Below are positions 51,121-62,402 of a DNA stretch of 64,000 nucleotides, in pieces. Within the stretch, counting starts at the first letter, position 1; every line of letters starts with the position of its first letter. A model generated the notes under the pieces. That model saw only the letters and a list, made by a program, of their open reading frames with translations, was not told the origin of the DNA and searched no databases. Both the position numbers and the translations under genes were made by a program. The DNA is from Sulfurovum sp. XGS-02 (GTDB lineage: Bacteria; Campylobacterota; Campylobacteria; Campylobacterales; Sulfurovaceae): NCBI RefSeq assembly GCF_023213175.1, contig NZ_CP093312.1, positions 124,001 through 188,000 of the forward strand, read 5' to 3'.

Positions 51121-51915
51121 ATGAAGAAAATTGTGATGTTTGTAGTACTGTTTCTAACTGTACTACAAGCAGAGTCTTTGGGCGTAAATGAAAAGTTGGG
51201 TGAATATGTTCCACTTGATTTAACATTTATCGATGAAGACGGAAAAAGTAGAACACTCAAAGAGTATATGGATGGGAAACCTACGATCATCTCTTTAAAC
51301 TACTTTAGATGTGCAGGTATCTGTACACCACAACTTGAAGATATGGCAAAAATGCTGTCTAAACTTGACTTGGCTGAAAATACTGACTACAAAGCGTTGA
51401 CCATCAGTTTTGCACCGGATGAAACACCACCATTGGCAAAAGCAAAAAGAAAAACGATGCTAGACGCAATGACCAGACCCTACGTGAAGGATGCATGGCA
51501 CTTTTTACTCAGTGAAAACAACTCTTCGGCTATTTTGGCTGACAAAGTTGGATTTACGTATAAAAAGGAAGTATCCCAAGCAGGTGTGGTTGAGTGGATT
51601 CATGCTGCAACATTGATCATTATTTCACCGGAAGGGAAGATCACACGTTACCTTAATGGTATCGAACAACTTCCTTTTGATGTGAAAATGGCAGTGTTGG
51701 AGTCAGCACAGGGAAAGGTTGGACCGACCATAGCTAAAACTTTACTTTACTGTTTCGCATACGATCCAAAAGGCAAAACCTATGTGTTTGCCTGGGAGAA
51801 GATAGCAGCAACAGTAATATTGACGATTACAATTATCTTTTTTATCTGGCTTATCAAAGCAGGGAGAAGAGATCAAGAAGAACATCTAAATCAAAGGAGA
51901 GACATAGATGAGTAA
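51121..51915 (+). CDS. SCO1/SenC-family copper chaperone
   Basis: 264 residues, exported by an N-terminal signal (MKKIVMFVVLFLTVLQAES). Copper-binding C64-x3-C68 (FRCAGICTPQ) and H161 (EWIHAATL) are intact. Unusually there is also a C-terminal membrane helix (about residues 222-246). SCO proteins deliver copper to the CuA site of cytochrome oxidase subunit II. That suits its place as first gene of the cox cluster; it overlaps coxA by 8 bases (ATGAGTAA). Confidence 0.9.
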   Translation: MKKIVMFVVLFLTVLQAESLGVNEKLGEYVPLDLTFIDEDGKSRTLKEYMDGKPTIISLNYFRCAGICTPQLEDMAKMLSKLDLAENTDYKALTISFAPDETPPLAKAKRKTMLDAMTRPYVKDAWHFLLSENNSSAILADKVGFTYKKEVSQAGVVEWIHAATLIIISPEGKITRYLNGIEQLPFDVKMAVLESAQGKVGPTIAKTLLYCFAYDPKGKTYVFAWEKIAATVILTITIIFFIWLIKAGRRDQEEHLNQRRDIDE

Positions 51916-53563
51916 AACTTATTTCGACGAAACACACTGTGCCATCGGGCACCCTAAGAGTACATTCATGCAATGGATGCTTACGATCGACCATAAAAGA
52001 ATCGGTATTATGTATGCAGCTGTCATGTTTGTATTCTTTTTTGTAGCTGTATTTACAGCATTTGCAATGAGACTTGAACTGTTTGCACCAGGGGGACAGT
52101 ATATGGATGGAGACACCTTTAACCAGGCCTTCACACTACATGGTGTAATTATGATCTTCCTTTTTATTATCCCGGGGATCCCTGCGATATTTGGAAACAT
52201 CGTTATGCCATTGATGATCGGTGCGAAAGATGTATCTTTCCCAAGATTGAACTGGTTTACGTTCTGGCTCTATATTGCGGGTTGTTGTATTGCACTTGCA
52301 TCACTATTTATAGGTGAAGGTGTAGCCGATACAGGTTGGACATTCTATGCACCATACTCAATGAATACAGGAACAAACGTTATTATGGCGCTTGTGGCTG
52401 CATTTGTTCTTGGTTTTGCTTCTATTCTTACTGGACTTAACTTTCTTGTTACGATCCACAGACTTAGAGCTCCGGGTATGACTTTCTTTAAAATGCCACT
52501 GTTTGTATGGGGTATCTACGCAACGGCATGGATCCAGCTTCTTGCAACACCGGTTGTGGGTATTACGCTTGTATTAGCTATTTTGGAAAAATATTTTGGT
52601 ATCGGTATCTTTGATCCGGCTAAAGGGGGAGACCCGGTATTGTTCCAACACCTGTTCTGGATCTACTCTCACCCGGCTGTTTATCTTATGATTCTTCCTG
52701 CATTCGGTATTATGTCTGAAATTATTCCTACTTTCTCAAGAAAAGAGGTATTCGGATATAGAACGATCGCTCTTTCATCAGCATCAATTGCAGGTATCGG
52801 TTATCTTGTATGGGGTCACCACCTTTATACATCTGGTATGTCAGATATTGCTAAAACTGTATTCTCATTCCTGACTTTCTTTGTTGCTATTCCAACAGGT
52901 GTAAAGTTCTATGACTGGGTTGCTACAATGTATCAAGGTAAGATCGTTCTTTCAACACCAATGATCTGGGCATTAGGAACAATCATTACATTTGCGATCG
53001 GTGGTATTACAGGGGTTACTATTACAATGATCGGTATGGACGTTCACTTGCAAGATACTTACTATACAGTGGCACACTTCCATTACGCAATTCTTGGTGG
53101 GGTTGTATTCTTGCTGTTTGCTGGTATGCACTATTGGTTCCCGCTTGTAACAGGTAAAATGTACAACGAAACAAAAGCAAAAATCGCTTTCTATCTTAAT
53201 TTTATTGGATTTAACCTACTATGGTTCCCAATGTTCATTGCTGGTTACTACGGTATGCCAAGACGTTATTTTGACTACTTACCGGAATTTGAAATCTATC
53301 ACCAAATCTCATTTGTAGGAGCAGTGATCTTTATTGCTGGTCTAATCTATATGTTCTGGGTATTCTTTAAAGGTTGGACAAAAGGTGAGGCAACTACGCC
53401 TAACCCATGGAATGCAACAACACTTGAGTGGCACTTACCAACATCACCACCACCGCTAGAGAACCACTCTAAAGTACCATATGTAGATTTTGATCCATAT
53501 GAGTATAAACATGGTGAGCCAGTGGTTAAATTTAATTATGAAACGATGCAAAGGATAGACTAA
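51908..53563 (+). CDS. coxA: Haem-copper oxidase subunit I, A2 type
   Basis: 551 residues, about 12 membrane helices. The proton-channel region reads IYSHPAVYLMILP, the YSHP variant that defines A2-type oxidases and lacks the GHPEVY glutamate of A1 types. Copper B/haem ligands are in HPAVY, WGHHLYTSG and VAHFHYAILGG; the K-channel lysine is in PTGVKFYDW; low-spin haem ligand is in TLHGVIMIF. It is the catalytic subunit of a quinol- or cytochrome-c-oxidising complex; the haem-c-bearing CoxB here favours cytochrome c/quinol-complex electron donors. The stop overlaps coxC as TAATG. Confidence 0.95.
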   Translation: MSKTYFDETHCAIGHPKSTFMQWMLTIDHKRIGIMYAAVMFVFFFVAVFTAFAMRLELFAPGGQYMDGDTFNQAFTLHGVIMIFLFIIPGIPAIFGNIVMPLMIGAKDVSFPRLNWFTFWLYIAGCCIALASLFIGEGVADTGWTFYAPYSMNTGTNVIMALVAAFVLGFASILTGLNFLVTIHRLRAPGMTFFKMPLFVWGIYATAWIQLLATPVVGITLVLAILEKYFGIGIFDPAKGGDPVLFQHLFWIYSHPAVYLMILPAFGIMSEIIPTFSRKEVFGYRTIALSSASIAGIGYLVWGHHLYTSGMSDIAKTVFSFLTFFVAIPTGVKFYDWVATMYQGKIVLSTPMIWALGTIITFAIGGITGVTITMIGMDVHLQDTYYTVAHFHYAILGGVVFLLFAGMHYWFPLVTGKMYNETKAKIAFYLNFIGFNLLWFPMFIAGYYGMPRRYFDYLPEFEIYHQISFVGAVIFIAGLIYMFWVFFKGWTKGEATTPNPWNATTLEWHLPTSPPPLENHSKVPYVDFDPYEYKHGEPVVKFNYETMQRID

Positions 53564-54252
53564 TGGGACACGAATACGTACCTGAGATCGCGATCGATCG
53601 CGATGGGAATCAACACGAAGTACAAGGTTGGCAAGGTGATTATTACGGCGGGAAACTAGGTTTCTGGCTGTTCATGCTCACAGAAGTAATGATGTTTGGA
53701 GCAATGTTTCTCTCATTGGCTTACTATAATTCATTGCACCCGCAAGACTTTTTAGATGCATCTGCAGGATTGAACAGACTATTGGGTGGTACGAATACAG
53801 TGATTCTACTTGTTTCAGCACTTACAATGGGACTAGGGTTACTTAGAATGAGAGCCGGTGATGTAAAAGGTTCTAAGCTTATGATCTGGGCAACTATTCT
53901 TTTGGCAGTTGCTTTCTTGGTGATCAAAGGATTTGAATGGACTGCTGAATACCATCACGGTATCTTCTTGATGCATGACAAACTATTGCCTGAGTCATCT
54001 TTACCATTTGGTCAGAAATTATTCTATGGTCTTTACTTTGCAATGACTGGTCTCCACGGATTCCACATTATCATTGGTATCGGTCTTATGCTATGGTTAC
54101 TTAAAAGAATCAATGCGGGTAAAGTAAGCACAGAGCATCATATTTTACACTGGAACATCGCACTATATTGGGATATCGTACACCTTATTTGGGTATTCGT
54201 ATTCCCTTATTTCTATATGATCGGAGCAGGAGGAGCTACAGGTGGACACTAA
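53563..54252 (+). CDS. coxC: Haem-copper oxidase subunit III
   Basis: 229 residues with about five to seven membrane helices, family features GKLGFWLFMLTEVMMFGAMF and TGLHGFHIIIGIGLMLW, and HWNIALYWDIVHLIWVFVFP at the C-terminus. It is a non-catalytic subunit supporting proton uptake and stability. It overlaps coxA by one base and coxD by 11. Confidence 0.94.
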   Translation: MGHEYVPEIAIDRDGNQHEVQGWQGDYYGGKLGFWLFMLTEVMMFGAMFLSLAYYNSLHPQDFLDASAGLNRLLGGTNTVILLVSALTMGLGLLRMRAGDVKGSKLMIWATILLAVAFLVIKGFEWTAEYHHGIFLMHDKLLPESSLPFGQKLFYGLYFAMTGLHGFHIIIGIGLMLWLLKRINAGKVSTEHHILHWNIALYWDIVHLIWVFVFPYFYMIGAGGATGGH

Positions 54253-54571
54253 TACAGTAAATTATCAAGAAGAGAAAAAAGTATATTATAAAGTACTCGT
54301 GGGACTATTGCTACTGACAGCGGTTACATTTATTCAACCGCATATGTTTATGACACATTCAACATTTTTAGCGCAAATGCTTATTGCAGTGGTGAAAGCT
54401 TGGTTGATCGTGATCTACTACATGCACTTAAAAGGTGAGAAACTGATCGGCGCTATGGTATGGTTTGCACTAGCATTAGTCGCAGTTTTCTTTATTATCG
54501 TCATTGGTATTGATGTTGCCAATTTCCAATTTGGAGCTGAAAGTCATATTACTGCTCCTGCAGCACACTAA
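54242..54571 (+). CDS. coxD: Oxidase subunit IV (caa3 type small subunit)
   Basis: 109 residues with three membrane helices (about 17-35, 41-61 and 71-95) and the family-typical KAWLIVIYYMHLKGEKL. The start is a GTG at 54242 within the end of coxC, with GGAGGAG upstream; no later in-frame ATG would retain the N-terminal part. It is the small subunit of caa3/bo3-like oxidases. Confidence 0.88.
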   Translation: MDTNTVNYQEEKKVYYKVLVGLLLLTAVTFIQPHMFMTHSTFLAQMLIAVVKAWLIVIYYMHLKGEKLIGAMVWFALALVAVFFIIVIGIDVANFQFGAESHITAPAAH

Positions 54572-54586
54572 GAGGGGTTTTATTAT

Positions 54587-55798
54587 ATGAGTAATACATT
54601 AGAAGGATTTAGTACAAGTGCATCGACTTTTAACGCAGACCATGAGTTTGCGTTCTGGCTGCACGTATGGATTTCAATTGCACTATTTTTATCAGTAGTT
54701 GCACCGATGATCTACTTTGCATGGAAGTATCGTGCAGACAAGGTCAAAAATGAAGATATCGGTACATTAACACATCATACCGGGTTGGAATTGGCATGGA
54801 CGATCATACCTATCATCGCCGTGATGGTTTTCTTTTACTATGGTAATACAACACTACAAATGTTTAGAACACTTCCGACAGTGACTGATGATACAGTTGT
54901 AGTCAAGGTTGAAGGTTCTAAGTGGAAGTGGAAGTATGAGTACCCTGCAAATAAAAGCGGATATGTACATAAAATCGGTGGCGCTTTCAAAAAACCTGTT
55001 ATGGATGAGAACGGTAAATTGATCGAAGAGGGTACAATGGGTATCACTGCACTCTATGTACCGGTGGATACAGATGTTATCTTGGAGATGACAGCACCAG
55101 TGGATGATGTAATCCACTCATTTTATATCCCTGCATTCCGTATGAAAGAGGATGTGGTTCCGGGACGTACAACAAAACAATGGTTTAATGCATCTAAAGT
55201 GGGTGAGTATGATGTAGAGTGTGCCGAGTACTGTGGTACGGACCACTCATATATGTACTCTAGAGTAGTAGTACTTCCAAAAGAGGAGTATGATGCATGG
55301 TTTAACGGTACAGATAATACACCAAAAGGTAATTATGCTAAAGGTGGTGATGCACTAGTACAACGACATGGATGTACACAATGTCATGCAATTGAAACAG
55401 ATAAAGTATTAGTTGGACCTTCTCTTAAAACTAGAAGATTAACTGAAGAACAAGTATTAGATGTCATCAATAATGGTCAAGATCAACTTGGATATGCTAT
55501 GGGTGCAATGCCAGCTGGTATGGCTACAGGTGCAGATGCTAAAGAGATCGCTGCGTATGTAGCTGGTGGTATGAAAGGTGAACAACCTGCATCATTTGCA
55601 GCATGTAGTTCTTGCCATGGAATGGATGGTAAAGGTATGAGCGGAATGTCTCCAAACCTTGTAGAATACGATGCGCCACTTATAGGTCATGTATTGAAAA
55701 ATGGTAAAAAAGGTATGATAGGTCAAATGCCAGCATACCCTGATATGACAGAAGAAGAGATTTCAACAATTGCTGAATATCTCGAAACAGGTAAGTAA
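54587..55798 (+). CDS. coxB: Oxidase subunit II with CuA site and two c-type haem sites
   Basis: 403 residues. Two N-terminal membrane helices (about 22-46, 67-85). CuA ligands H177, C212, C216, H220 and M223 in a cupredoxin domain. Then a C-terminal extension with CxxCH at 263-267 and 340-344, i.e. two haem-c sites; most caa3 subunits II carry only one. Residues 286-385 match CcoP residues 177-276 at 77 of 100 positions by hand count, and the distance from the first CxxCH is also equal, so the module is shared with the cbb3 oxidase. The stop overlaps ctaB as TAATG. Confidence 0.95.
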   Translation: MSNTLEGFSTSASTFNADHEFAFWLHVWISIALFLSVVAPMIYFAWKYRADKVKNEDIGTLTHHTGLELAWTIIPIIAVMVFFYYGNTTLQMFRTLPTVTDDTVVVKVEGSKWKWKYEYPANKSGYVHKIGGAFKKPVMDENGKLIEEGTMGITALYVPVDTDVILEMTAPVDDVIHSFYIPAFRMKEDVVPGRTTKQWFNASKVGEYDVECAEYCGTDHSYMYSRVVVLPKEEYDAWFNGTDNTPKGNYAKGGDALVQRHGCTQCHAIETDKVLVGPSLKTRRLTEEQVLDVINNGQDQLGYAMGAMPAGMATGADAKEIAAYVAGGMKGEQPASFAACSSCHGMDGKGMSGMSPNLVEYDAPLIGHVLKNGKKGMIGQMPAYPDMTEEEISTIAEYLETGK

Positions 55799-56661
55799 TG
55801 ATTAAAGATTTTTTCGTAGTTACCAAATTTATTCTCTCCTTTGCAGTCAGTTTATCTGCACTCTTTGCCTATATCATGGCAAAGGGAGAGATTGGTGTAG
55901 ATATGTTTATTGCTACCTTCTCTGTACTTTTAGTAGCGATGGGAGTTTCGACTCTTAATCAAGTACAAGAGTATAAAGAAGATTCCAAGATGGAAAGAAC
56001 GAAAAATCGTCCTATCGCAGCGGGACGTATGTCCCCTCGTACCGGGATTATCATCGCATTAGTATTGATCCTGGTCTCATTTGCGTCTATCTATTCACTC
56101 TTAGGCCTTACAGGGATAAACTTTTTTGGTTTTGCATTTATTTGGTACAACCTCATGTATACACCTTTGAAGAAGAGATCTGCCGTAGCGGTGGTTCCAG
56201 GAGCGATACTGGGTGTTATCCCACCGGCTATCGGGTGGCTGGCAGCAGGCCATACACTCTTTGAGTTGGAGTTCATTGCCTTAGCGGTCTATTATTTTAT
56301 CTGGCAGGTACCACACTTTTGGTTATTGGTCATGCTCTTTCACGGTGATTACAAAGATGGTGGGTATCCAACAGCGATGCGTCTGTTTGGGGAAGGGACA
56401 CTACAGAGACTTACCTTTGTATGGCTCATACTGACCATACATGCAGGTATCTACCTGGTCTATACCTTCAATGTTTATTTAATGGTGACAGTGGTACTTT
56501 CTGCAGCACTTGGAGTATGGGCATTTATCACATCCCTGCAACTGCTCAAAAAAGAGTTTAAACTGACAGATGCACGTGCGATCTTCTGGAAGATCAATGC
56601 AGCATTTTTAGGGATCATCATACTTCTTAGTATCGATGAATATGTAAAACATCATATATAA
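55798..56661 (+). CDS. ctaB: Protohaem IX farnesyltransferase (haem O synthase)
   Basis: UbiA-family membrane prenyltransferase, 287 residues and about nine helices, that converts haem B to haem O. Aspartate/asparagine motif in NQVQEYKEDSKMERTKNRP and the second conserved region around WQVPHFWLL and HGDYKDGGYP. It closes the cox cluster. No haem A synthase (ctaA) gene is present in the window. TAATG overlap with coxB. Confidence 0.93.
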   Translation: MIKDFFVVTKFILSFAVSLSALFAYIMAKGEIGVDMFIATFSVLLVAMGVSTLNQVQEYKEDSKMERTKNRPIAAGRMSPRTGIIIALVLILVSFASIYSLLGLTGINFFGFAFIWYNLMYTPLKKRSAVAVVPGAILGVIPPAIGWLAAGHTLFELEFIALAVYYFIWQVPHFWLLVMLFHGDYKDGGYPTAMRLFGEGTLQRLTFVWLILTIHAGIYLVYTFNVYLMVTVVLSAALGVWAFITSLQLLKKEFKLTDARAIFWKINAAFLGIIILLSIDEYVKHHI

Positions 56662-56751: not shown

Positions 56752-57285
56752 ATGCAAGAAAACCAATATACAATTCAAACGATCATAGAGAGTGTTTTTA
56801 AAGAACACAACTATAAGATCAAAAAAAGACTTATTTATGATAATGCACTGTTCGGAGGACTGAGCAGCAAGTGGATCAAATTGGCTTTTCTTATTTTACC
56901 GTTTGCGATGTATGCTGCCATATTCAATCCTACATCTTTTAAAGCGTTGGGTATCGCACAAGCCATTGTATTTTATATCATTCTTCTTGTATTTGCCATG
57001 CAGATCGTTGTAGCAGTCTCTTACTTTAACAATAAAAAGGTGTTAAAAACAGCTACCAAAGCATGGGAGGACTACTTCCCCAATATTGATTTTAAAATGA
57101 TACTCTCTTCTGGTGCCACACCTTATGCGGATTTTAAAAAATATTATGAAGCTGCACTCAGTGAGGGGTTAACTGAAGATGCACTCAAGGATAAAATGAG
57201 TGAAGCTTTCCAACAGATGGAATCTGAAAACACTCACCTTGTCGAGGCGATGAAGAAAGACAAAGAGAAAAGAGCAGGTAAATAG
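56752..57285 (+). CDS. Membrane protein of unknown family, 177 residues
   Basis: Two adjacent membrane helices in the middle (about 42-61 and 68-91) with a soluble N-terminal helix region and a long charged C-terminal helical tail (QQMESENTHLVEAMKKDKEKR). I do not recognise the family. AAGGAACAAAT precedes the ATG. It ends 1 base before the next gene's start, between the two oxidase clusters, so a role in oxidase assembly is conceivable but only from position. Confidence 0.7.
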   Translation: MQENQYTIQTIIESVFKEHNYKIKKRLIYDNALFGGLSSKWIKLAFLILPFAMYAAIFNPTSFKALGIAQAIVFYIILLVFAMQIVVAVSYFNNKKVLKTATKAWEDYFPNIDFKMILSSGATPYADFKKYYEAALSEGLTEDALKDKMSEAFQQMESENTHLVEAMKKDKEKRAGK

Positions 57286-58150: not shown

Positions 58151-59617
58151 ATGCAATCAAATGCAGCATTGGAATATGATTATTCATTAGCAAAAAAGTT
58201 TACCTTTTTAACTATTTTGTTTGGATTTTTAGGAATGTTGATCGGTACGATTATTGCCGCACAAATGGCATTTCCTGAATTAAACTATCTATTGGGAGAG
58301 TATGGGACATTCTCAAGACTCAGACCACTTCATACAAATACGGTTGTATTTGGATTTACGGTTTCGGCAATCTTTGCTACTTGGTTTTATATAGGGCAAA
58401 GAGTCCTTAAAGTATCTATGGCAGAATCGAAGTTTTTGATGGTGGTCGGAAACATTCAATTTTGGCTTTATTTTGTAGGAGCACTTTTAGCGACGATATC
58501 TTTGCTATTGGGTATTTCTTCTGGTAAAGAGTATGCTCAGTATGAGTGGTGGGCTGATCTTGTTGTAGTAGTCATTTGGGTACTTTGGGGCCTTGGTATC
58601 ATGGGTCTTATAGGGATCAGAAGAGAGAAAGCACTCTATATCTCTATATGGTATTTTCTTGCATGTTTCCTTGGTATTGCCATGTTGTATCTTTTCAACA
58701 ATATGTCGATCCCTACTTATTTCGCAACGGAAGGGCTTGGTGCTATCACACACTCGGTATCTATGTATTCAGGTACAAATGATGCACTAGTACAATGGTG
58801 GTATGGACACAATGCGGTTGCATTTGGATTTACTGTACCTATCGTTGGTATGATCTACTACTTCCTGCCAAAAGAGTCTGGACAGGCTATCTATTCTTAT
58901 AAGCTCTCTTTACTCTCTTTCTGGGGATTGATGTTCGTTTACCTATGGGCAGGTTCTCACCACCTTTTATGGTCAACAGTTCCAGATTGGATGCAAACAA
59001 TGGGTTCTGCGTTCTCAGTGGTACTAATTTTGCCATCATGGGGTTCAGCAATCAACATGCTCCTTACGATGAAAGGTGAGTGGAATCAGTTAACAGACAA
59101 TCCATTGATCAAATTCATGGTGCTTGCATCTACATTCTATATGTTATCAACGATCGAAGGTCCTATCCAAGCGATCAAATCAGTGAATGCCATTGCACAC
59201 TTTACTGACTGGATCCCTGGACATGTACATGATGGTGTACTTGGTTGGGTAACATTTATGATCATGGCTTCATTGTTCCATATGGCTCCGCGTATGTTCA
59301 AAAGAGAGATCTACTCTAGAAAACTTATGGAGACACAGTTCTGGCTTCAGACAACAGCGGTCGTGCTTTACTTTACATCTATGTGGATCGCAGGTATTAC
59401 ACAAGGTATGATGTGGAGAGCAGTAGATGAGTATGGTAACTTGATGTATTCTTTCATAGATACGGTCAATGTACTTCACCCTTACTACACGATCAGAGCA
59501 CTAGCAGGTGTAATGTACCTTATTGGTTTCATTATGTTCGCTTACAATATGTATAAAACGATGACTTCTGCTAAAGAGATTACAGAAGAACCACAGTTTA
59601 GAACACCTATGGCATAA
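58151..59617 (+). CDS. ccoN: cbb3-type cytochrome c oxidase subunit I
   Basis: Catalytic haem-copper subunit of the high-affinity cbb3 oxidase, 488 residues and about 12 helices. Copper B/haem ligands in WWYGHNAVAFGF, AGSHHLLWST and DWIPGHVHDGVLGW; low-spin haem ligand in RPLHTNTVVFGF. It has AAGGGGG before the ATG. First gene of ccoN-O-Q-P, the oxidase that normally works at low oxygen in this phylum. Confidence 0.97.
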   Translation: MQSNAALEYDYSLAKKFTFLTILFGFLGMLIGTIIAAQMAFPELNYLLGEYGTFSRLRPLHTNTVVFGFTVSAIFATWFYIGQRVLKVSMAESKFLMVVGNIQFWLYFVGALLATISLLLGISSGKEYAQYEWWADLVVVVIWVLWGLGIMGLIGIRREKALYISIWYFLACFLGIAMLYLFNNMSIPTYFATEGLGAITHSVSMYSGTNDALVQWWYGHNAVAFGFTVPIVGMIYYFLPKESGQAIYSYKLSLLSFWGLMFVYLWAGSHHLLWSTVPDWMQTMGSAFSVVLILPSWGSAINMLLTMKGEWNQLTDNPLIKFMVLASTFYMLSTIEGPIQAIKSVNAIAHFTDWIPGHVHDGVLGWVTFMIMASLFHMAPRMFKREIYSRKLMETQFWLQTTAVVLYFTSMWIAGITQGMMWRAVDEYGNLMYSFIDTVNVLHPYYTIRALAGVMYLIGFIMFAYNMYKTMTSAKEITEEPQFRTPMA

Positions 59618-59632
59618 GGGAGGTACTTTATT

Positions 59633-60301
59633 ATGTTTTTTCATTGGTTAGAAAAAAATCCATTCTTCTTCGCTTCGGGGATCTCGATCGTTATTGCATT
59701 TGCAGGACTTATTGAGATCGTACCGAATTTTGCGAAGGCGGCAAGACCGGTAGTAGACCTTAAACCTCGTACTGTCCTCGAGCTTGCAGGTAAAAATGTC
59801 TATATTAAAGACAACTGTATGTCATGTCACTCACAGCTTATCCGTCCATTTAAATCTGAGACGGACCGTTATGGGGATTATTCACTTTCAGGTGAGTATG
59901 CATTTGACAGACCATTCCTTTGGGGTTCTAAAAGAACTGGTCCGGACCTTCACCGTGTAGGAAACTACAGAACAACAGATTGGCATGAAAACCATATGTT
60001 GAATCCTGCTGAGATTGTACCTGGGTCTATTATGCCGGCATATAAACACCAGTTCACGAACCTGGCTGATATTGAAACTGCCTATGCTGAAGCGGTAACG
60101 GTTAAAAATGCATTTCACACACCATACGGCCCTGAGTTTAAAGGAACCAGAGCTGCATGGGAAGCACATAAACCGAAAGTTCTTGCAGACGCAAAAGCAA
60201 TTGCAGATGATATGAAAAACAAAGACGTTAAAGAAGCAGTTGCGAGAGGTGAAGTACCTGAAATCGTAGCACTGATTGCTTACCTTAACAGTTTGAAATA
60301 G
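59633..60301 (+). CDS. ccoO: cbb3 oxidase subunit II, mono-haem cytochrome c
   Basis: 222 residues. One N-terminal membrane anchor (about 11-30) and a single CxxCH haem-c site in DNCMSCHSQLIRP; later PGSIMPAYKH supplies the axial methionine. Conserved WGSKRTGPDLHRVG is a CcoO/FixO hallmark. It follows ccoN by 15 bases. Confidence 0.96.
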   Translation: MFFHWLEKNPFFFASGISIVIAFAGLIEIVPNFAKAARPVVDLKPRTVLELAGKNVYIKDNCMSCHSQLIRPFKSETDRYGDYSLSGEYAFDRPFLWGSKRTGPDLHRVGNYRTTDWHENHMLNPAEIVPGSIMPAYKHQFTNLADIETAYAEAVTVKNAFHTPYGPEFKGTRAAWEAHKPKVLADAKAIADDMKNKDVKEAVARGEVPEIVALIAYLNSLK

Positions 60302-60312
60302 GCGAGAGAAAG

Positions 60313-60531
60313 ATGGACATCAGGGATCTTCAAGGCTATGCCAGTTTCTTTATGACCATTTTTTTGGTAGTGATGCTGTATGGGTATATTATACACCTGT
60401 ACAGAAGTGAAAAAAAAGGTGAGCGTGATTATGAAAAATACGGGAATATTGCACTTGATGATGAAGTCACAAGTACACCCGTAGAAGATAAACCCGCATC
60501 ACAAAGAGAATATAAGGAGGAGAATAAATGA
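60313..60531 (+). CDS. ccoQ: cbb3 oxidase small subunit CcoQ
   Basis: 72 residues with one membrane helix (about 9-30) and a charged cytosolic tail. In other bacteria CcoQ stabilises the CcoNO-CcoP assembly. It overlaps the ccoP start as ATGA, with GGAGGAG in its last codons acting as the ccoP ribosome site. Confidence 0.88.
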   Translation: MDIRDLQGYASFFMTIFLVVMLYGYIIHLYRSEKKGERDYEKYGNIALDDEVTSTPVEDKPASQREYKEENK

Positions 60532-61418
60532 ATGCATTAATGATAAAAGCATTGGCATTTGCAGCGGTGTTGATCATCGCAACGATCGCTGTTGTAACGA
60601 GTCTGGATATTGATATCTTTGCAGACTCTGTAAATGCGATAACAATGGGGGGAGCAATTGCAGTTGCGACGATCACAGCATCGGTTGCGGTTAAATATGT
60701 GAATCAGATGAAAACGGATACAGCAGCTGGTCCGCTTGCAGAGGATAACTGGGACGGTATCGGAGAGTATGAGAATGAACTACCATCAGGTTGGGCATAT
60801 TCATTCTTGGCAGTTTTTCTTTGGTCAATGTGGTATGGTCTTATAGGGTATCCTGTAAATGCCTATAGCCAGATCGGTGAGTACAATGAAGATGTACTGG
60901 CATATAATGCAAAGTTTGAAGCTATACACAAAAATGCGGATGAAGCAACACTAAAAGAGATGGGTGAGTCTATCTTTTTGGTACAGTGTCAGCAGTGTCA
61001 CGGTGTGACAGGAGATGGTCTTTCAGGTAAAGCACAAGATTTTACAGCCAGAATGAGCAAAGAGCAAGTATTGGATGTGATCAAGAATGGTCAAAACCAA
61101 TTAGGGTATCCTATGGGTGCAATGCCTGCAGGTATGGCACAAGGTGCAGATGCTGAAGCGATCGCTGAGTATGTTGCCGGTGGTATGAAAGGTGAACAGC
61201 CTGCAGCATTCGCAGCGTGTGGTTCTTGTCACGGAATGGATGGTAAAGGAAACAATGGTATGTCACCAAACCTTGTATCTTACGATGCTGCATTGATGAA
61301 CCATGTAGTTCAAAACGGTAAGAAGGGTATGATCGGTAAAATGCCGTCATTTAAGACACTTATTACACCAGTACAAGAGAAAGCTTTGACTGTATATATT
61401 CAGTCATTGTCAAACTAA
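60528..61418 (+). CDS. ccoP: cbb3 oxidase subunit III, di-haem cytochrome c
   Basis: 296 residues. Two membrane helices near the N-terminus (about 6-24 and 37-56) and a third hydrophobic stretch (about 89-109); then two haem-c sites, CQQCH at 154-158 and CGSCH at 231-235, with methionine-rich axial-ligand regions GAMPAGM and MIGKMP. It passes electrons to CcoO/CcoN. Residues 177-276 are nearly identical to the CoxB C-terminal module about 5.6 kb upstream. Confidence 0.96.
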   Translation: MNALMIKALAFAAVLIIATIAVVTSLDIDIFADSVNAITMGGAIAVATITASVAVKYVNQMKTDTAAGPLAEDNWDGIGEYENELPSGWAYSFLAVFLWSMWYGLIGYPVNAYSQIGEYNEDVLAYNAKFEAIHKNADEATLKEMGESIFLVQCQQCHGVTGDGLSGKAQDFTARMSKEQVLDVIKNGQNQLGYPMGAMPAGMAQGADAEAIAEYVAGGMKGEQPAAFAACGSCHGMDGKGNNGMSPNLVSYDAALMNHVVQNGKKGMIGKMPSFKTLITPVQEKALTVYIQSLSN

Positions 61419-61428
61419 GGAGTTTCAT

Positions 61429-61668
61429 ATGGCAGAAAATACAAAACGAAGTTTATTTGGACTACATGGAATATTCGGGGTTTTGATCTCGATCGTAGGT
61501 TTACTTGCAATTCTGATTACATTGATGCTCATGGTGGTCGTTGTACAAAGACATGCAGCGGTAAAGCCTTATGATCCGACAGCGATCAGAGACATAAATA
61601 ACGTTAAAATGATTGATGTAGAGAATAAGCAGTATTCATTTATAGATGCAGAGAAAAAGGATAAATAA
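61429..61668 (+). CDS. DUF4006 family membrane protein
   Basis: 79 residues, one membrane helix (about 13-41) and a short periplasmic tail (DPTAIRDINNVKMIDVEN). DUF4006 genes typically sit right after ccoP in Campylobacterota, so an accessory role in cbb3 assembly or stability is likely but unproven. The stop overlaps the start of a micro-ORF as TAATG. Confidence 0.85.
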   Translation: MAENTKRSLFGLHGIFGVLISIVGLLAILITLMLMVVVVQRHAAVKPYDPTAIRDINNVKMIDVENKQYSFIDAEKKDK

Positions 61669-61772: not shown

Positions 61773-62402
61773 ATGTTCAAAGCAAAAGTAAGGGCAACCT
61801 TGCTTGCTTTGGTACTTCCTCTTCTTCTAAACGCTAGTCATATACTCAAAGATGACATTCTAAAAATTGAAGCTGCACAACTCATCAATGAGATGGGTGA
61901 TGAACTTTTTTCAAAAACAGGTATTAATGGATATGTGATAGCAACCAATGAACACTTTCCTGTAGGTTTCAACCTGGTAGCGTATAGCAAGAAGTATGAG
62001 GCACAAATGAGCAAGCCTTATGTCTTATTTATATTTGCACCTCAGGCACGAATCACTGAGCAAGCAGATACAAAGGGCAGGGTAGCGTTGATCCCTTCAT
62101 CTGATGAAATCCGTGATTTATATGATAAAGATGATGTGGAAGATGCTGTAGTGGATATTGTCTCTTCGAAAGATAGTAACTCCGATGAAGATAAACATAA
62201 CATTGGTGTACTGCAGGCTTTTTCAGAGCTGGCAGAAGGCATTGCTGAGTCCAAAGGGATTAAACTGACCAAAACGATACCTAATGAGACACGGCATATG
62301 GTATGGGGCTTAAGTGTGCTTATCTACATCGGTTCATTCTTGGTACTCTGGATCTTTGCAATCAGACCACTATATATGAGGATAAAACATGGCAAAAAAT
62401 AG
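61773..62402 (+). CDS. Exported membrane-anchored protein of the cbb3 cluster, unknown family
   Basis: 209 residues: signal peptide (MFKAKVRATLLALVLPLLLNAS), a periplasmic domain (about 23-170) and a C-terminal membrane helix (about 177-199) followed by RIKHGKK. The periplasmic part has an alternating helix/strand pattern (NEMGDELFSKTG, KPYVLFIFAP, GRVALIPSSDEIRDLYD) faintly like TPM domains, but I would not assign it. It overlaps the FixH-like gene by 14 bases, so it belongs to the same operon. Confidence 0.75.
   Translation: MFKAKVRATLLALVLPLLLNASHILKDDILKIEAAQLINEMGDELFSKTGINGYVIATNEHFPVGFNLVAYSKKYEAQMSKPYVLFIFAPQARITEQADTKGRVALIPSSDEIRDLYDKDDVEDAVVDIVSSKDSNSDEDKHNIGVLQAFSELAEGIAESKGIKLTKTIPNETRHMVWGLSVLIYIGSFLVLWIFAIRPLYMRIKHGKK

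Follow-up and report, generated by a model that had tools for sequence, protein, structure and literature searches.

CoxB, the subunit II of a haem-copper oxidase of Sulfurovum sp. XGS-02, is probably a natural chimera. Its gene lies in a window of 64,000 nucleotides (G000:C1:124001-188000, the whole stretch analysed) from a 2.19 Mb genome made of a single contig, in the six-gene cluster sco-coxACDB-ctaB (51121-56661, all on the + strand, with genes that overlap or nearly abut). The interpretation which we consider probable is that the cluster encodes a proton-pumping oxidase of the A2 type, presumably with haem O and/or B, that its CoxB arose from the insertion of a piece of CcoP, a subunit of cbb3 oxidases, and that the tail of CoxB has been exchanged by recombination. 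Five parts of this interpretation are shown by sequence comparison: the mosaic build of the tail, its relation to CcoP, the clade formed by the chimeric tails, the disagreement of tail type with the oxidase core, and a breakpoint that follows the CuA site.

Mosaic build of the CoxB tail

The di-haem tail of CoxB aligns with the CcoP encoded in the downstream cbb3 operon, about 5 kb away, with 87 of 131 residues identical (66%, BLASTP). This likeness is confined to the middle of the tail. Residues 254-281 are identical to the mono-haem CoxB of genome G003, from the same genus, at 18 of 28 positions, and to the window's own CcoP at 5 of 28. Seven of the last 15 residues are identical to the G003 protein, against one (end to end) or three (best offset) for CcoP. 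Codon by codon, the nucleotide identity between the coxB tail and its own ccoP is 0.44–0.55 over the first haem motif, 0.67–0.87 in the next segment and 0.45 at the end. Because both flanks are of CoxB type and the middle is of CcoP type, a piece of CcoP, from the middle of its haem domain 1 to near the end of its domain 2, sits inside a CoxB haem domain. The original prediction had recognized the two haem sites; it made no mention of the likeness to the neighbouring CcoP. The parts concerned are the following.

54587-55798, + strand: coxB, subunit II, with a membrane anchor, a CuA cupredoxin domain and a mosaic di-haem tail (TIGR02866 CoxB over cut-off; ligands)
55322-55429, + strand: CoxB residues 246-281, CoxB-type N-terminal half of haem domain 1 (CTQCH)
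55430-55738, + strand: CoxB residues 282-384 (about 103 residues), CcoP-derived segment with Met308, CSSCH at 340-344 and Met381 (BLASTP, tail tree, codon profile)
55739-55795, + strand: CoxB residues 385-403, CoxB-type C-terminal helix
60978-61361, + strand: stretch of ccoP with homology to the CoxB tail (residues 151-278 of CcoP, BLASTP)

The Pfam matches of CoxB are COX2 (6e-18), Cytochrome_CBB3 (2.5e-19) and Cytochrom_C (1.7e-10). With a profile built from 12 chimeric tails, the best match over the first motif (positions 11-40) is a cytochrome c555 construct; over the second haem, the profile finds cbb3 CcoP chains, which make up three of its six PDB matches. The identity with CcoP and the position of the chimeric tails among CcoPs thus both indicate that the di-haem module is homologous to that of CcoP. 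CoxB is not a whole CcoP: it scores 44.6 bits against TIGR00782 (cut-off 179.95) and lacks FixP_N. The window's own CcoP is also under this cut-off (118.5 bits) but has FixP_N.

The CuA site of CoxB is complete (H177, C212, E214, C216, H220, M223). Haem 1 would be bound by C263-C266-H267 with M308 and haem 2 by C340-C343-H344 with M381, a Met-Pro being present downstream of each CxxCH. The CuA ligands, both CxxCH motifs and both methionines are invariant in an alignment of 20 chimeric CoxBs; these sites are therefore conserved and not due to chance.

A structure model of the whole of CoxB was mediocre (predicted local distance difference test score, pLDDT, of 71.6; predicted template modelling score of 0.53) and was not used; the model of the tail alone reached a pLDDT of 80.8. 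VIA-align matched the latter to single cytochrome c chains, with Z up to 9.4, and no CcoP chain is among the matches listed. In this model (CoxB 252-403, model residues 9-160), single-domain cytochromes c match both ends and skip the middle; in one example, 77 residues are aligned over model residues 9-160 with a Z of 9.4. The skipped middle hints at a nested fold: the two outer parts, from CoxB, may together form one cytochrome that encloses a permuted one from CcoP. A helix swap in the prediction, made from a shallow alignment, is as likely.

Probable exchange and origin of the tail

The CoxB core occurs in 27 of the 78 genomes of the genus (low-scoring matches in 870-aa frames being left out), with three types of tail: 11 are chimeric (G000, the window's genome, and G473, G027, G446, G437, G439, G026, G019, G455, G022, G013), 11 are mono-haem (G003, G459, G012, G007, G031, G471, G440, G470, G438, G008, G449) and five are of the tandem type (the duplicates G004, G005, G028 and G452, plus G029, whose two-haem tail is a distant variant of this type). 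The 37 named Campylobacterota loci (L numbers, which overlap in part with the G genomes) comprise 19 chimeras (L095 included), eight mono-haem, eight tandem and two truncated forms (L110, L145). The chimera is present in loci titled Sulfurovum, Sulfuricurvum, Sulfurimonas, Arcobacter, Helicobacteraceae and Campylobacteraceae (L095), and under less specific Campylobacterota names. Many of the sampled genomes are incomplete metagenome-assembled genomes (MAGs); a binning artefact is an unlikely source of the chimera, because it is also present outside MAGs, in Sulfurovum sp. AR and in a Sulfurimonas genome from a single cell.

In the whole phylum, CoxB was counted in 17 of 397 genomes, at E<1e-12, a threshold which leaves out G345 (257 aa) and G107 (194 aa), two possible further CoxBs. 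Most PF00116 matches of this search are frames of 860-900 aa, which we take to be nitrous oxide reductases. The arrangement is not universal in the phylum, in keeping with the original prediction. Other forms were seen: the CoxB of G212 (L052), of 557 aa, has three CxxCH motifs and an apparently triplicated haem domain, and a second CoxB is found in G440 (L196 and a second contig) and, as a distant form, in G446. In G440 and G446, the two CoxBs differ in tail or core type and could represent two oxidases or contamination.

The tail types do not follow the core. On a tree of 38 rows built from CoxA and CoxB up to just behind CuA, nine changes are required for all labels, at least five of which concern the chimera and are forced by starred branches. 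In the tree of CoxA alone, the window and AR, which have chimeric tails, form a starred trio (98) with the mono-haem G003; their CoxA is identical to that of the window at 547 (AR) and 544 (G003) of 551 positions.

A MaxChi-type test was applied to 14 triples, with 5000 permutations each and no correction for the number of triples. It places the following zone in the coxB of the window.

55217-55288, + strand: inferred breakpoint zone, after residues 211-234 in four triples and after residue 226 in the main one

In the main triple, the window resembles G003 at 122 of 155 informative sites over residues 1-226; behind residue 226 it matches L078, and only 15 of 53 sites are like G003. None of the 5000 permutations reaches the observed value. 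AR behaves as the window does, the chimera L084 breaks at residue 245, and two mono-haem controls give no signal (742 and 1137 of 5000 permutations). A triple with L087 places the break of the window at residue 125 instead. The mono-haem G003 itself breaks at residue 230 against the window and L109 (0/5000); this may be one and the same exchange viewed from its other partner, or a second exchange. The simplest reading of these data is that the chimeric tail was imported at least twice separately, with putative crossovers near the conserved CuA motif.

According to an alternative that is unlikely but keeps some force, the chimera is ancestral to the whole group, and the mono-haem genes reverted later by taking up a mono-haem tail. 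Chimeras do span several families, and some mono-haem rows lie inside chimera groups (L108 in Sulfuricurvum). In the window's core group, on the contrary, the native linker behind CuA (MEK..WFE), of mono type, is found in G003, L109 and G012 and is kept in the chimera L084, whereas in the window and AR it is replaced by a linker of chimera type; the breakpoints, 226 and 245 in L084, also differ. These linkers and breakpoints speak for import of the chimeric tail in the window's core group; in other groups, the exchange may have gone either way.

It is improbable that the swaps are selectively neutral, with electrons entering CuA directly and a tail that does little. Mono- and di-haem versions indeed replace each other at one locus, but the invariance of both haem sites in the 20 chimeras described above argues against a dispensable tail.

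The origin of the segment was examined with a tree of 80 tails (58 from CcoP, 22 from CoxB). All but one of the 22 chimeric tails fall into a single clade (99/92), which is placed among the CcoPs of Sulfurovum. This clade includes the CoxB tails of Sulfurimonas and Sulfuricurvum, whose own CcoPs are placed elsewhere. Because these tails group with the CcoPs of Sulfurovum and not with their own, the tree speaks for a single main capture, from a CcoP like those of Sulfurovum, and a later spread. The remaining tail, that of L095, groups with other CcoPs (95/87). In this CoxB from a Campylobacteraceae MAG (L095:6437-7630), both haem motifs look CcoP-like, and it represents a fuller and perhaps separate capture. 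Its place in the tail tree and its CcoP-type first motif point to an independent second capture, but one clade of all 22 tails is not rejected by the approximately unbiased (AU) test (p = 0.295), and this second capture was not retained.

Repeated capture or gene conversion, in which sequence from the resident ccoP enters coxB in every lineage and keeps the tail similar to that CcoP, is quite improbable. The proximity of coxB and ccoP in the window and the fuller CcoP module of L095 would fit such a process. On the other hand, 21 tails belong to one clade, those of Sulfuricurvum and Sulfurimonas resemble the CcoP of Sulfurovum rather than their own, and the residues private to one tail match the CcoP of the same genome in only four of 28 cases, in seven genomes. 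Ongoing conversion from the resident ccoP was also rejected for the window, where one residue is common to the tail and its own CcoP and the private residues gave no support.

That the enzyme is an ordinary ccaa3/cc(b/o)o3 oxidase, with a second haem formed by duplication within subunit II as for Desulfovibrio and Shewanella, is hardly credible: the domain count is the same, with two c-haem sites behind CuA, and tandem duplicates do occur in the phylum (domains identical to each other at 63/77 positions in L097 and 57/77 in L098), but the two domains of the window share only 13 of 44 residues, compared to the 87 of 131 shared with CcoP, and none of the 15 PDB matches of a profile of five tandem tails is a CcoP, compared to half of those of the chimeras. 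Internal duplication is thus contradicted as the source of chimeric tails and holds for tandem tails. The original prediction had compared CoxB with the di-haem subunits II of Desulfovibrio, and this is not supported, the second haem coming here from CcoP. Besides Desulfovibrio, which it named, Shewanella and other gamma-proteobacteria have such subunits, described there as duplications (PMC3899249).

Oxidase class, haem cofactors and neighbouring genes

CoxA carries the motif YSHP (Y253-S254-H255-P256), which replaces GHPE and which we take to be the mark of A2 enzymes. It also has H78, H304/H305, H390/H392, Y259, K333 and D108, so that YSHP, the histidines of CuB and of the haems, the cross-linked tyrosine and the lysine of the K channel are all present. 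Its score against the NCBIfam equivalog TIGR02891 is 639.9, under the cut-off of 670.75. The residues and the domain matches confirm an A2-type oxidase with CuA and two c-haems adjoining a real cbb3 operon, and the coordinates of the open reading frames and their Pfam domains agree with the gene order initially proposed. The other genes are listed below.

51121-51915, + strand: sco, first gene of the cluster here and in relatives, for a copper chaperone of SCO1/SenC type (Pfam SCO1-SenC 3e-7, over cut-off)
51908-53563, + strand: coxA, A2-type subunit I (Pfam COX1 1e-150, key residues, alignment with solved A-type subunits)
53563-54252, + strand: coxC, subunit III (Pfam COX3 2e-13)
54242-54571, + strand: coxD, subunit IV (Pfam COX4_pro 3.1e-9; TIGR02229 over cut-off)
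55798-56661, + strand: ctaB, haem O synthase (Pfam UbiA 1.9e-39; TIGR01473 2.1e-46, under the model's cut-off)
56752-57285, + strand: orf177, 3' of ctaB (homologue in 31 of the 37 named Campylobacterota loci; no Pfam match)
58151-61418, + strand: ccoNOQP, complete cbb3 oxidase operon (TIGR00780, TIGR00781 and TIGR02736 over cut-off; TIGR00782 3.3e-34, under cut-off), with gene starts at 58151 (ccoN), 59633 (ccoO), 60313 (ccoQ) and 60528 (ccoP)

The assignment of the sco product is supported by Pfam SCO1-SenC and by no NCBIfam model. The orf177 product may be an assembly factor of the A2 oxidase; its homologue is present also at loci where the fetched stretch has no cbb3 genes. On the 3' side of ccoP are encoded a DUF4006 protein (61429-61668) and a conserved protein of 209 aa with no Pfam match (61773-62402), and most of the fetched cbb3 loci have both of them after ccoP. 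A cytochrome b (PF00033) is encoded in the genome, which has no bd oxidase above cut-off.

The haem A synthase CtaA (PF02628), expected in the genome of a haem A oxidase, is over cut-off in none of 60 relatives (this genome included) and none of 397 phylum genomes, in searches that detected it in seven of 14 control genomes and gave one sub-threshold match each. Since CtaA is not found over cut-off while ctaB is in the cluster, the A2 oxidase most likely carries haem O and/or B and not haem A. Bacillus oxidases can use haem O in place of haem A, and E. coli makes haem O, not A (PMC9145763). The original prediction of a ccaa3 or cco3-like enzyme is thus supported in its cco3 form, and its haem A form is improbable. 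Cox11 (PF04442) is likewise over cut-off in none of the 60 relatives, with just one of 14 control genomes positive. The names aa3 and caa3 for the Campylobacterota enzyme, whose use in PMC10066037, PMC8056087 and PMC12403661 appears to be based on annotation, are probably misnomers and may need correcting, because CtaA is over cut-off in 0 of the 397 genomes.

Proposed mechanism, known systems and significance

According to the mechanism that we propose, the haem domain of an ancestral mono-haem CoxB of Sulfurovum type would have been interrupted in its middle by a CcoP segment, consisting of the second half of haem domain 1 and nearly all of domain 2, and a single step would have turned one c-haem into two. 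From this one main fusion, the tail would later have reached other lineages, through homologous recombination within coxB and through transfer of the cluster as a whole. Electrons would flow from the bc1 complex or a periplasmic cytochrome c to the CcoP-like haem(s), then to CuA, the low-spin haem and the haem-CuB site, and protons would be pumped as in other A2 enzymes. The borrowed CcoP-like face would let the A2 oxidase share donors with the cbb3 oxidase, both running in parallel.

Several observations weigh against this interpretation. The entry of electrons, the sharing of donors and the haem content are deduced from sequence. The tail tree is based on 101 columns, and the tail of L095 falls outside its main clade. 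The insert differs more between the window and AR (77 of 102 amino acids identical) than other parts of CoxB do. At third positions, it is about as conserved (79/102) as ccoP (230/296), and its faster change at the protein level could reflect relaxed constraint. A Foldseek comparison of the tail-only model with solved structures gave no match at E≤0.001, the best cbb3 CcoP chain ranking tenth (E 0.14). As regards the haem, R55 of CoxA, placed by motif, is conserved, and the equivalent arginine contacts the formyl group of haem a in Paracoccus and is taken as a sign of haem A (PMC3899249).

A more general proposal, plausible but falling a little short of probable, is that electrons enter through an exchangeable cassette, the part of CoxB behind CuA, which would have the donor interface of cbb3 oxidases and compete with mono-haem and tandem cassettes by recombination near CuA. 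We extend it, equally tentatively, to Sulfurovum, Sulfurimonas, Sulfuricurvum and Arcobacter-like bacteria, the CcoP fragment being cut from mid-domain to mid-domain.

The caa3 oxidases of Thermus and others differ from the enzyme of the window in having one c-haem and haem A. Their CoxB ends, as here, in a cytochrome c domain (chains 2yev and 1w2l). The CcoP of cbb3 oxidases (3mk7, 5djq, 8smr) is the source family of the tail segment, but it belongs to a C-type oxidase devoid of CuA, whereas the segment in the window hangs on a CuA domain. The ccaa3/cc(b/o)o3 oxidases of Shewanella and Desulfovibrio have CuA and two c-haems in subunit II, like the window (PMC3899249). The Shewanella enzyme belongs to the A1 type, is accompanied by ctaA and has two haem domains that share 61% identity, whereas the window has an A2 enzyme, no ctaA and a CcoP-derived haem. 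The caa3 cluster of Desulfuromonas has the same order as the window, sco-coxA-coxC-coxD-coxB-ctaB, judging by locus-tag numbers (PMC8235581).

The nearest named relative is Sulfurovum sp. AR (L083), whose CoxB is 88% identical to that of the window; its enzyme and that of Sulfurimonas pluma belong to the same family as the enzyme of the window. An A2-type oxidase has been published for both, with a proposed role at high oxygen, and the A2 and cbb3 oxidases are both highly expressed in plumes (PMC10066037). This expression does not demonstrate a switch from one to the other, as inferred in the original prediction, and fits parallel use as well as a switch. The same paper names the enzyme caa3, and its main text does not contain the terms subunit II, coxB, heme c, chimer or fusion. 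The A2 oxidase of Campylobacterota, its horizontal acquisition and di-haem subunits II (as duplications) are therefore already published; the CcoP-derived mosaic tail and tail swapping were not found in a full-text literature search with subscription journals mostly outside its scope.

The usual classification of haem-copper oxidases relies on subunit I and assumes that subunit II goes with it. Here, an electron-entry part of the C class (cbb3) appears to have been spliced onto an A2 oxidase and to move independently of the catalytic core. The near-identical cores with one or two haems, such as those of G003 and of the window (CoxA), would provide natural pairs for testing the c-haem tail.

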